Translations under genes and position numbers: made by a program
Source of the DNA: an uncultured Bacilli bacterium
GTDB lineage: Bacteria; Bacillota_I; Bacilli_A; RF39; UBA660
NCBI GenBank assembly: GCA_904420615.1
Contig: CAJFVY010000035.1
Span: forward strand, 1 to 40,698
DNA length: 40,698 nucleotides
Direction of reading: 5' to 3'
The notes under the pieces: generated by a model
What the model was told of the DNA's origin: nothing
Database searches by the model: none
What the model saw: only the letters and a program-made list of their open reading frames with translations
In this document: one piece after another, positions 17,628 to 37,700 of the stretch
How positions within the stretch are numbered: the stretch's first letter is position 1
Layout: every line of letters starts with the position of its first letter

Positions 17628-18090
17628 TCACAAATTTGTATATATTAAAACTTCCATTAACAAAGTAAATAACTCATTCAAATAAATTTTTATATTATTT
17701 CCATATATTACCGGACTAGAAGTAATGTTTTGAGGAGTAGTTGGATAGCAAGCATGTTTTATTAAGACTTTTTCTACTTTAATATCTGTTTCGTAAGTTA
17801 CAACTAGTGTATTATTTTCTGTTAATTTATTTTTATTTTCTATCATTTTATCTATTTTTTCCTGATTTCTGGCGATTGTTGATAATTACTTTTTTATATC
17901 CATTAGTGGAAGAAGGCTTACTATAATTAGAACTATCTTTATCGTTATTATTTTTTAATCTTTCATTTTCAAGTAATAATTCTTGAACTTTTTTATTTGC
18001 CTTTTCTAGTTCTTTTGTAAGTTTCTTATTATTTTCATTTAATTCTTCAAATTGTTTATAAACATCATGTACATATCCTTTTGTTGTCAT
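17628..18090 (-). pseudogene. IS66-type transposase relic
   Basis: Two small minus-strand frames are remains of one IS66-like transposase. The first (17848-18090, 80 aa) is the N-terminal leucine-zipper segment with LLLENERLKNNNDKDSSN and KPSSTNGYKK, typical of IS66/DUF6444 N-termini. It ends at a TAA instead of running into the Gly/His-rich region. The second (17628-17846, 72 aa) resumes in another frame with TPQNITSSPVIYGNNIKI, the block just before the catalytic domain. The middle and all DDE catalytic residues are missing, so it is dead. No terminal inverted repeats found. Confidence 0.75.
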
Positions 18091-18161: not shown

Positions 18162-18190
18162 TTGTTTTAAGAACAAGCGTTCGTTATAAT
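18162..18190 (+). promoter_or_regulatory. Promoter of the small hydrophobic peptide gene
   Basis: TTGTTT (18162-18167), exactly 17 bases, perfect TATAAT (18185-18190) on the plus strand. The spacer is almost filled by a LexA-type operator. Confidence 0.8.
18171..18182 (+). promoter_or_regulatory. LexA (SOS) box inside the promoter
   Basis: GAACAAGCGTTC is an exact GAAC-N4-GTTC, the core of the Gram-positive LexA/DinR operator, and it fits the R-N-R-Y centre. It sits between the -35 and -10 boxes, where bound LexA would block RNA polymerase. No second copy was noticed elsewhere in the window. Inference: the gene is DNA-damage inducible. Confidence 0.8.
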
Positions 18191-18217
18191 ATATTTAGGA
18201 ACATTTAATAGTTGGGT

Positions 18218-18250
18218 GCTACCTCTGACTTTACAGATAGGAGGTGATGC
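18218..18250 (+). promoter_or_regulatory. 5'UTR hairpin burying the Shine-Dalgarno
   Basis: ACCTC (18221-18225) pairs with GAGGT (18241-18245), locking the AGGAGGTG ribosome-binding site into a hairpin. Outer GC/GC pairs (18218-18219 with 18249-18250) extend it. Also, TTGGGTGC (18212-18219) can pair with GCACCTAA (18341-18348) at the 3' end, one G-U included. That resembles the 5'-3' foldback of type I toxin mRNAs. Confidence 0.6.
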
Positions 18251-18252
18251 TT

Positions 18253-18336
18253 GTGAGTAAGAAAAATTTTTTGATCTTTTCTTTAATCATTATCATCCTT
18301 TTACTTATAGCATTACTTTTTGTAATTCTAAAATAA
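18253..18336 (+). CDS. 27-aa hydrophobic peptide, candidate SOS-induced type I toxin-like
   Basis: A GTG start 8 bases after AGGAGG gives a 27-residue peptide. It has an MSKKN head, one continuous hydrophobic stretch of about 21 residues rich in Ile/Leu (LIIIILLLIALL), and a single terminal Lys. An in-frame ATG 6 bases earlier would give 29 residues but lies too close to the SD. A promoter with a LexA box precedes it, a SD-sequestering hairpin covers its start, and a strong terminator follows. It should be a single-pass membrane peptide. Layout and size resemble E. coli TisB, an SOS-induced membrane toxin, without evident sequence kinship. No antisense antitoxin promoter was found, so toxicity is only inferred. 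Confidence 0.65.
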   Translation: MSKKNFLIFSLIIIILLLIALLFVILK

Positions 18337-18340
18337 AAAT

Positions 18341-18370
18341 GCACCTAACTCAAGCTTTGAATTAGGTGCT
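18341..18370 (+). terminator. Terminator of the small peptide gene
   Basis: GCACCTAA (18341-18348) and TTAGGTGC (18362-18369) form the stem, with further TCAA/TTGA pairing inside. It starts 4 bases past the stop codon. Its 5' arm can also pair with the mRNA 5' end. Confidence 0.75.
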
Positions 18371-18461
18371 ACACAAATTATTGGGTAACACTCAACACGG
18401 CAATATTGAATGTTCCTTTAATATTTTATGATTTTTTCTTCATCCATATACATAATAACAC

Positions 18462-18513
18462 AAAAACGACTTTCTGACAAGTCGTTTTCTATTGTTACGC
18501 GAAAGTTCGCGTT
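18462..18513 (-). terminator. Two hairpins downstream of tRNA-Arg
   Basis: On the minus strand, ACGCGAA / TTCGCGT (18496-18512) comes first. AAAACGACTT / AAGTCGTTTT (18463-18488) with a T tract then acts as the intrinsic terminator of the tRNA-Arg transcript. The latter is symmetric and could also stop plus-strand transcription. Confidence 0.65.
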
Positions 18514-18524
18514 TACTATCAATC

Positions 18525-18601
18525 TGGTGTCCCAGAAGGGATTCGAACCCCTGACACCCGCCTTAGAAGGGCGATGCTCTATCCAGCTGAGCTACTGGGA
18601 C
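18525..18601 (-). tRNA. tRNA-Arg (anticodon UCU)
   Basis: Cloverleaf with acceptor GTCCCAG / CTGGGAC, D-arm AGCTCAGCTGGATAGAGC, anticodon loop CTTCTAA (anticodon TCT at 18565-18567), T-loop GGTTCGAATCC, discriminator A and encoded CCA. It reads AGA, the dominant Arg codon in this AT-rich genome. Confidence 0.97.
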
Positions 18602-34729: not shown

Positions 34730-37700
34730 ATATTTTCTATTTTTGTAAGGGTTTCTTGCATAATAGAGTATAAATAGCAGGTAACTGGTAAGTGTAATTT
34801 ATCTGTAATAATCGTTTTATAACCTCTTAATTGATCTAAATAAGCAGAATCTTTTACATTACTAAGCTTATAATCAATAATAATAGCATCTTTCTTACTT
34901 ACCAGTAATAAATCTATGATTCCATGTCTTATTTTAGAACCATCCCGAGTCATAAATTCATATTCTTGATATACTTTATAATCTTTTATATTACTAAAAA
35001 GATCATTATGTAAAAAAGCAGATATTTTATTCTTTAATTTTTCATCATGAATAATTGGCATTTTTTTATTTTTAATGTCACATCGCTCTAAAATTTCATG
35101 AACTTTAGTTCCATATTCCAATAACTCTAATTCTTCTTGTGTTTTACTCTTTAAACTTGTTTTAGAAAATGTTTCGCTATTAAGATCTTCACTACTATAT
35201 TGTGATGGTATTAGTACTTCTTCTTTTTCTTTGAAAGAAGTAATTTGACTATCTTTTTTTACTTCTAAATATGATTTTGTTATATGATCTATTTTATTAA
35301 TTTCTTTTATATTATTTTGAAATAGAATACTAACACTTTTCATAATCTTATAAAAAGAATTATAACTATAGCGTATACTATTATCTACTAACTCCCCTAC
35401 TTCTTCATAACTTTCAAATTGAGGAAGTACCAAAATCATTTTTTCTCTAGCTCTAGTTAAGGCTACATAAAGAAGTCTTATTCTTTCACTAATATCTTCT
35501 TGAGTCATTTTTTCTACTAATAAAGTACGAGTGATAATGTCACTTTCTTCATCAGGATCACTAATTACTATTCCAAAATCAGCATCGAATAATACTCGCT
35601 TTTTAGTATCATCATTATTAAATTTCTTAGTAAACCCCGCAAAATAGCATAATGGATATTCTAATCCCTTAGAAGTATGTATTGTCATAATCTTGACGCT
35701 AGATCCTTCTTTATAACGAATAGGAAGTCTAATTTCTAGGCCACTCGCTGTTAAATCTTTAAAATAGTTTGCTATTTCTTCAATAGTAAAGTTACTCTTT
35801 TCAAGGGAATGAATCAACTGGTAAAAATATTCTAGTCTAGCAGAATAATTATCTATCTGTCCCACAAGTGTTAATTTCTGTTCATAGTTTAGTTTTGTAA
35901 TCATAGTTAAGAAATATTGACTAGGTGTCATAGTATCATAATCTACTATTACACTGGCAAAGTCTTGATAAAGATTACTTTTTTTTATATCACCATTTAA
36001 TTCATTATAAATTTCTTCATCTGTTTTTTGATATAGAAAACTACGCGCTAAAGAAGTATAAGCTGTTTTAAACTCTGAATCTATAAGGTTATTTCTCATC
36101 TTAAAGGCCATAATAAAGATATTTTTAATCAAAAACAAGTCCATTTTCCCATTTGATGATTCATCTTTCCAAATAATAAGAGGAATACCTAAATATTCAA
36201 AAATCTGTTTATATCTAACAAAATCGGTAGATCTATCTAATAAAATAACGATATCACTATATTCTAGTTTTCTTAATTTATTTTCATCTTTATCAAAGAC
36301 AAAATAATTACTATTCATTTTTTCTTTAATGTCATTCGCAATAATAAAGGCTTCTTTCTCAACAGTGGTATATTCTTTATCTTGATCATCATAACTTAAT
36401 ATCTCTAGCTTACAAGGAGTTTCTACTTTAGCTTCATTCTCATAAACTTGATTACCAAATACCATCGCATGCCCATCAGTATAAGTTGCTCCTCCTAACG
36501 GACTATCCATAACATGACTAAAAATAGTATTAATGTCAGCTAATACTTCTTTCCTACTACGAAAGTTCTTAACAAGATCAATTACCATTCCATCATCATG
36601 TTGTTTATAACGATCATATTTATCCTTAAAAATCAAAGGATTAGCATTACGAAAACGATAAATAGATTGTTTTATATCTCCTACCATATAAACATTATGT
36701 TTAGCTATATAACTGATAAAACACTCTTGAATATCATTCGTATCTTGATATTCATCAATTAAAATTTCTTGAAATGAATCTCTTAACTCATTTCTTACTT
36801 CTTCAAAATCTCGTACTAACTCTATTGCCATCTTTTCAATATCTAAAAAAGTATAATACTGCTTTTCTTCTTTATATGCCTTTATTTTTTGATTTAATCT
36901 TGTAATACACTCTATAATAAATTCTGCTAACTCCTTGGTTGAAAATAACTTCTCATAAATCTCTTTTTCATCTTGATAAGAAAAATAACTATGAATTTCT
37001 TTTAACATCTTAGCTAATTTTGTCTTACTAGTCTTTAACTCTTCACTACTATTCTTTGGTAAATTAGGTAAAGCACTAGGTAATTTTTCTTTTCTTTTTT
37101 GATATTCTTGTTCACTAAAGAAAGGATCTAACAAAACATGTAGCTTTTCCTGAAACTTTCCTTCACTATAAGATAATACAATTTGATATTCTTCTTCTAA
37201 AGCATTTATTTTTTGATCTAATACTTGATTATATAATGTTATATAATGATTTAAATTAGAAGGAGAATAATACCAATCCATATACTTTTCTATATATTCA
37301 TCACGATTTAATAATAAATCCATCTTATCATCTAATTCTAAAATAATATTTTTTAAAGACTTATCATCTTTTAAACATAATAAATGGATCATCTTTTCAA
37401 AATTAGGAGTAGGATTTTGATAATATTCTAAAAAAAGTTCATCAATTAATTTTTGCTTTGCAAGTTGTAAAACAGAATTTTCAGCAATCGTAATATTAGA
37501 AGATACATGCAAAAAGTCAGCATATTTCCGTACTACTGATAGAGAAAAAGAATCAAAAGTAGTAATATAGCTATTATCCATCAATAATAATTCTTCTTGG
37601 AAATTTTCCTTCATTAATTTCTGTCTAATTCTCGCTTGCATTTCCATAGCTGCTTTATTAGTAAAGGTTAAGATTAATAACTGATTAATATGAATTCCCT

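Follow-up and report, generated by a model that had tools for sequence, protein, structure and literature searches.

A probable SOS-controlled type I toxin-antitoxin module of an undescribed family in an uncultured Bacilli bacterium

Introduction

What is encoded by a 27-codon hydrophobic ORF that sits behind a promoter with a LexA-like box, and how is its message kept silent? The ORF lies in the window examined here, a 40,698-nt stretch of contig CAJFVY010000035.1 from an uncultured Bacilli bacterium, and an earlier note on this DNA had proposed that it is a TisB-like SOS toxin candidate. In E. coli, the type I toxin genes tisB, dinQ, and symE are SOS-inducible, carry LexA boxes, and have antitoxins that are made constitutively (PMC5848175, PMC6563280), and the type I antitoxins of B. 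subtilis pair with the 3' ends of toxin mRNAs (PMC6562991). In this work we collected the relatives of the locus by nhmmer and pattern searches; comparison of these copies is the source of what is said below on the promoter layout, the LexA box, the RNA structures, coding selection and the family itself. We consider it probable, with good confidence, that the locus belongs to an undescribed family of type I toxin-antitoxin modules, and that it is under SOS control and has an antisense antitoxin.

Results

The putative toxin promoter and its predicted LexA operator

The toxin promoter (18162-18190, plus strand) was read from the sequence as a -35 element TTGTTT (18162-18167) and a -10 element TATAAT (18185-18190) separated by a 17-bp spacer, with the transcription start site (TSS) predicted near 18197. 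The spacer contains the predicted LexA operator GAACAAGCGTTC (18171-18182), an exact GAAC-N4-GTTC motif with a fixed position in homologs; the earlier note had described this arrangement, and all of its elements lie where it placed them. The -10 element and the body downstream of it are kept across the module family in the aligned copies. Motif count alone was rejected as support for LexA control: the window contains two exact GAAC-N4-GTTC sites, the other being at 35100 inside a coding ORF, and the genome count was not above that of a reversed-motif control. The motif is not rare by itself, so the weight of the box rests on its position and conservation. In a broad set of 91 copies from named records, 30 carried GAAC-N4-GTT(C/T) within 80 bp upstream, and the box started at -25 to -27 from the TSS in all 30. 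Of 37 genera sampled at one or two loci each, 20 showed a strict box at -25 to -27, and none was found at any other position among the copies of this sample; the copies are related, so these counts over copies and genera are not independent.

The lexA gene is present in all 35 genomes of the genus. GAAC-N4-GTTT was found in all five lexA upstream regions examined, and the recA upstream regions of the genus contain (G/A)AAC-N4-GTTC followed by G; in one genome (G000) the lexA and recA boxes are GAACAAACGTTT and AAACGATTGTTC. The toxin promoter of the window thus carries a box that matches the organism's own consensus, at a position held constant in homologs. The proposal of a LexA-controlled promoter agrees with these results, which point to SOS (LexA) control of the window module and predict its induction by DNA damage.

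Many other copies have no LexA box and carry other operators instead. Box-less copies (L034, L037, L049 and similar ones) show either the palindrome TTACGAAAATTCGTAA with CTAATTTATTACA upstream of the -35 element, or TGGTAAAAATTACCA; most copies in Onthousia-like genomes are without the LexA box and have TTACGAAAATTCGTAA or TGGTAAAAATTACCA further upstream. The palindrome TTACGAAAATTCGTAA is absent from the window copy. Sites of the TTACGAAAATTCGTAA or TGGTAAAAATTACCA type are numerous in several genomes, mostly at modules. Since some related copies have exchanged LexA for another operator, the signals to which the modules answer can be tested directly. As a separate observation, an acetate kinase-like gene and a gene that begins with MNEVVTKENIKIEDMIYEIRGKQ are separated in L426 and L422 by a region (approximately 1480-1580) with two copies of TTACGAAAATTCGTAA 47 bp apart; a link of this pair to the regulator of the box-less copies is possible. 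We also considered TTACGAAAATTCGTAA as a mark of recF regulation and rejected it, the site in L402 and L412 being inside the recF coding sequence, as judged from the translation.

The predicted toxin ORF is under purifying selection

The 27-codon ORF (18253-18336, plus strand; GTG start at 18253, TAA at 18334-18336; VSKKNFLIFSLIIIILLLIALLFVILK) encodes the hydrophobic peptide (M/V)SKKNFLIFSLIIIILLLIALLFVILK; the homologs have ATG in place of the window's GTG. Among 64 unique 27-codon ORFs, 18-21 of the 22 residues from position 6 onward are hydrophobic, which bears out the hydrophobic ORF proposed earlier, and KK and D after the start as well as several leucines are nearly fixed. At 27 residues the peptide falls within the size range of type I toxins (small hydrophobic peptides of less than 60 aa), and a transmembrane helix is expected from its hydrophobicity. 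Nearest-neighbour pairs of these ORFs differ at codon positions 1, 2, and 3 in 70, 24, and 108 cases, respectively, and give a dN/dS of ∼0.22, a signal of purifying selection that the overlap with RNA structure may inflate. Like the ORF of a type I toxin, it behaves as a conserved, real coding gene, and the selection that the earlier note looked for is present.

The window peptide gave no match in Pfam, NCBIfam (E ≤ 1), PHROGs, or PDB, searches that are limited for short hydrophobic peptides; within these libraries the peptide has no counterpart among described families, in keeping with the earlier view of a module with a sequence of its own, distinct from TisB. Other peptides were found on the same RNA scaffold, of the MKTKTFILKVLKLIPSILISLAFLVLVLKID, MRKSEKYLCTIIILLIIVILIMLIKIVPTA, and KKRVYVIKLLRYICIILSLLTLLVLVIKK types (L111, L115, L095, L127; L118; L128, L130, L205, L367).

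Extent and structure of the predicted toxin mRNA

The toxin mRNA is predicted to extend on the plus strand from the TSS to a U-rich end (18197-18424), as indicated by family conservation, a closing helix followed by a U-run, and a fold of -71.7 kcal/mol (z -7.5 vs. shuffles). The promoter-to-end unit covers 18162-18418 with an mRNA of 222 nt and an end at 18416-18424. The extent given earlier (18162-18370) was 48 nt too short, and the antitoxin had been overlooked. Aligned copies share a body that runs from AGGAACATTTAATAGTTGGGTG through the ORF and a hairpin, P3 (18341-18369), to CACTCAAC...TATTGAATGTTCC (ending at 18416) and the U-run.

The closing helix joins a 5' strand at 18198-18219 (GGAACATTTAATA, GTTGGGTG) to a 3' strand at 18389-18416 (CACTCAAC at 18389-18396 and TATTGAATGTTCC at 18404-18416). 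In 35 divergent sequences, 98% of the cells of the closing helix and P3 were paired and 9 pairs showed double changes, a level reached by 0 of 500 shuffles; slid controls were 35-43% paired. The mean probability of the closing helix was 0.98 over the 35 members, and the sense side after it carries a T-run (mean of 7.7 T in 10 nt). The mRNA likely ends with this helix and its U-run. Hairpin P3 had been taken for the mRNA terminator, a reading that we rejected from the side of its T-run: the ten bases past P3 contain 7.0 T on the antisense side vs. 2.9 on the sense side. The T-run is therefore on the minus strand, and P3 is predicted to terminate the antisense RNA, not the mRNA, in whose 3' UTR it lies.

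The Shine-Dalgarno sequence (SD; GGAGG, 18240-18244) is enclosed in a hairpin (18221-18245, plus strand) formed by ACCTC (18221-18225) and GAGGT (18241-18245), which is conserved in the family and located as the earlier note had it. The SD has a mean unpaired probability of 0.03 in the window copy; the mean for 35 family members is 0.23. The predicted occlusion is local, with a mean unpaired probability of 0.23 with the 3' UTR vs. 0.28 without it; the closing helix as the sole control of SD exposure was rejected, because occlusion hardly shifts when the 3' UTR is removed. Structure prediction and covariation together suggest an mRNA that is poorly translated through its structure, as in type I systems, with the closing helix formed and the SD mostly paired.

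The 5' end can also fold back onto P3. In the window TTGGGTGC (18212-18219) can pair with GCACCTAA (18341-18348), and the full alternative pairing joins 18211-18219 to 18341-18349; across the family, 97.5% of the cells between GTTGGGTG and the P3 5' arm CACCTAAC were paired. The base adjoining the foldback covaries (102 of 118 paired: AT 41, GC 41, CG 13, TG 4, and others), and its counterpart in the P3 5' arm is paired with the P3 3' arm as well (106/118), so that three segments are linked by pairings that exclude one another. Both pairings persist, in changed sequence, where the copies have other peptides, as with GAGTGTC and GACACTC in L111, L128, and L130. The foldback of the mRNA 5' end onto the hairpin 5' arm, which had been suggested from the window copy, thus recurs in relatives with compensatory changes; such changes were found in the closing helix as well, next to a conserved SD hairpin.

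A predicted antisense RNA covers the 3' UTR

A minus-strand RNA of the module, the predicted antitoxin, would start near 18445 and end after P3 (18337-18445), with its promoter and terminator conserved in other copies. It spans the whole mRNA 3' UTR, an overlap of ∼80-90 bases. The antisense promoter (18452-18480, minus strand) consists of TTGTCA (18475-18480), a 17-bp spacer, and TATTAT (18452-18457), a layout shared with other copies. Taken singly, the copies show a modest excess in promoter score (9.3 vs. 8.5 of 12 in shuffles); it is the conserved position and the alignment of many copies, not the single-copy scores, that argue for this putative promoter. The antisense leader contains a small 5' hairpin (mean of -4.7 vs. 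-1.3 kcal/mol in shuffled sequences), and antisense promoter, leader hairpin, and terminator are all conserved among the copies. A terminator-like hairpin at 18466-18485 overlaps the antisense promoter.

Modules behind tRNA genes

A tRNA-Arg(TCT) gene (18525-18601, minus strand) lies on the antisense strand at a distance of 109 bp from the module; it is followed by a trailer hairpin CGCGAA/TTCGCG (18498-18511, minus strand) of a kind common to tRNA genes of the lineage with or without a module. A tRNA gene is near 22 of 150 copies, nearly all of the LexA type or close to it; 13 more cases were found in the 37-genus sample. In the tRNA-adjacent copies the tRNA is on the antisense strand with its 3' end usually 106-112 bases from the module, and the genes concerned are those for Leu, Arg, Met, Thr, Ala, and Lys-Leu arrays. 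We rejected the spacer right behind the tRNA as a part of the module: this sequence (CCAGATTGATAGGAAACTCGAAC..TTCGAGT) is a trailer also present behind module-free tRNAs, and modules are therefore placed behind the trailer. In the window, the trailer hairpin and the terminator-like hairpin (18466-18511) overlap or adjoin the antitoxin -35 region. Read-through from the tRNA gene might affect the antitoxin supply. None of the fetched loci of relatives that contain the window's neighbouring response-regulator gene had a module nearby. Just upstream of the module, an 80-residue minus-strand ORF (17848-18090) gave a weak, sub-threshold YabA match.

Distribution of the family

Within the genus, a 231-base query matched 31 of 35 genomes and gave at most 13 matches in any one of them, so that the unit, proposed from one locus, belongs to a conserved multicopy family; Candidatus Onthousia faecipullorum (DVKQ01000015.1, DVKQ01000024.1, DVKQ01000036.1) is among the genus genomes with the motif. 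Across the taxonomic family to which the genus belongs, a 21-base motif of the 5' end (one mismatch allowed) was found in 39 of 117 genera (91 of 385 genomes); the reversed pattern, used as a control, gave 0 matches. The motif itself gave 0 in 341 genomes from the other families in the class. Judged by record titles, the carriers are mostly metagenome-assembled Bacilli, many of them from animal guts. No blastn or tblastn match was obtained in 50,697 phage and 72,556 plasmid records, nor any match in a pattern scan of viral contigs. A covariance model of the module scored the window copy at 204.7 bits (filters off). The module had no Rfam match above the gathering score; the window contains a T-box and tRNAs only, apart from sub-threshold chance matches. 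Tandem arrays of up to four copies ∼333 bp apart occur (L236 2513-3730; L187; L076). Further, more divergent modules were seen behind tRNA trailers in three genomes (L300, L310, L314, L318 in G014, G002, G031), and the family is therefore larger than counted.

Discussion

Proposed mechanism

From transcription and SOS induction through RNA-RNA pairing to toxicity and growth arrest, the following course of events is what the sequences lead us to expect. In an undamaged cell, LexA bound between the -35 and -10 elements would silence the toxin gene, and the constitutive-looking minus-strand promoter would yield an antisense RNA of ∼110 nt. Upon DNA damage, cleavage of LexA would allow toxin mRNA synthesis. 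This mRNA would be compact and poorly translated: a local hairpin would hold the SD, and the 5' end would be paired to one of two partners, the P3 5' arm or the mRNA 3' end. The antisense RNA, perfectly complementary to the 3' UTR, would bind to it, prevent refolding, and attract RNase III. When the mRNA exceeds the antisense RNA, the 27-residue single-helix peptide would be made, insert in the membrane, and arrest growth.

Alternative explanations

The peptide could instead be an SOS-induced membrane regulator, for example one that inhibits division or modulates a membrane enzyme, and the antisense RNA would then only set its level. The fixed KKD motif after the start and the defined hydrophobic pattern could mean a specific partner, and SOS regulons do include small division inhibitors such as YneA and SidA. 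We regard this as unlikely, since many copies per genome, tandem arrays, and varied peptides on one scaffold are typical of type I toxins, as are an antisense RNA and SD occlusion, whereas a dedicated regulator is rarely so multiplied. SOS induction frequently accompanies phage attack, and the patchy, insertion-like distribution near tRNA genes, which are common sites for integrative elements, would also suit a device that serves mobile elements in addiction or phage defence and takes SOS as the alarm for invasion or prophage induction; the empty searches of phage and plasmid records and of viral contigs speak against such a device, to which we give a rather low probability.

The copies are dispersed, tandem, and often behind tRNA genes, relatives have the neighbouring gene with no module nearby, and the ends AGGAACATTTAATA and TATTGAATGTTCC are inverted repeats. 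From this the locus could be read as, in the main, a small mobile element of RNA or DNA whose conserved ends are transposition signals and whose ORF is secondary. However, conservation exceeds the repeats: the antisense leader, the LexA box, and the two promoters are kept as well. Purifying selection acts on the ORF, and an internal arm covaries with the 5' end. Such an element is highly improbable in our view, and a type I toxin-antitoxin module remains the preferred reading.

A wider proposal, which we put forward tentatively and hold to be less likely than its negation, is that the family is one RNA scaffold (the 5'/3' closing helix, the three-segment switch, and the 3' antisense RNA) with interchangeable peptides and operators, LexA among them, and that the LexA type is docked behind tRNA trailers with the antitoxin promoter overlapping the tRNA terminator. 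If so, the supply of antitoxin would be tied to tRNA transcription and that of toxin to DNA damage.

Comparison with known systems

The proposal of a TisB-like SOS toxin was right in kind, given the LexA box, the coding selection, and the structures. The layout departs from that of TisB, because the predicted antitoxin would be transcribed convergently and overlap the 3' end of the mRNA. TisB/IstR-1 of Escherichia coli (PMC8309996) shares with the module, as predicted here, an SOS-linked membrane peptide of similar size, an inhibitory 5' structure, and an RNA antitoxin; IstR-1 is constitutive, and the module's antisense promoter is constitutive-looking. The target of IstR-1 is a standby site in the 5' region, whereas no such block is seen here, the predicted antisense RNA being over the 3' UTR. 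The window peptide had no match pointing to TisB homology in NCBIfam or Pfam (E ≤ 1), a test that short hydrophobic peptides weaken. There may be a second, trans-acting RNA besides the antisense RNA.

DinQ/AgrB of Escherichia coli resembles the predicted module in its 27-residue single-helix membrane peptide, LexA control, mutually exclusive mRNA structures, and RNA antitoxin (PMC8309996; PMC6563280). It differs in that it is from another phylum and has no sequence match in the libraries searched, and in that the module here forms a multicopy family. AgrB is encoded separately, whereas the module's predicted antisense RNA overlaps the mRNA 3' end. Long-range pairing between the mRNA 5' and 3' ends is shared with Hok/Sok of plasmid R1, where it keeps the transcript inert. 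Sok pairs near the 5' leader, the peptide differs from that of the module, and we know of no LexA box in this plasmid system.

The Bacillus subtilis pairs BsrG/SR4, TxpA/RatA, and BsrE/SR5 are like the predicted module in that the antitoxin pairs at the 3' ends, and the bsrG SD is occluded; they have different peptides and a complementarity of 100-140 bp vs. ∼80-90 here, and the review of these pairs makes no mention of LexA (PMC6562991). The conserved promoter and terminator of the module argue for a convergent antitoxin of this TxpA/BsrG type over the mRNA 3' end, and no Pfam or NCBIfam match links the window peptide to TxpA or BsrG. We found no earlier description of the module family in the open-access papers searched; one may exist elsewhere. 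To our knowledge, no SOS-controlled type I module had been known outside enterobacteria. The SOS-controlled type I toxins in the reviews consulted (tisB, dinQ, symE) are all from E. coli, and the module would be an independent family of gut Bacilli, with no sequence relation to these toxins that could be detected, spread over dozens of genera and below the size that most gene callers accept. It would place the same logic of DNA damage, membrane peptide, and RNA antitoxin on another RNA architecture, and its copies form an unusually rich natural alignment for studying how toxin mRNAs stay silent. This is a new family, not a new principle: on our best reading, the window module combines the SOS logic of the E. 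coli toxins with the 3'-overlap architecture of the B. subtilis pairs.
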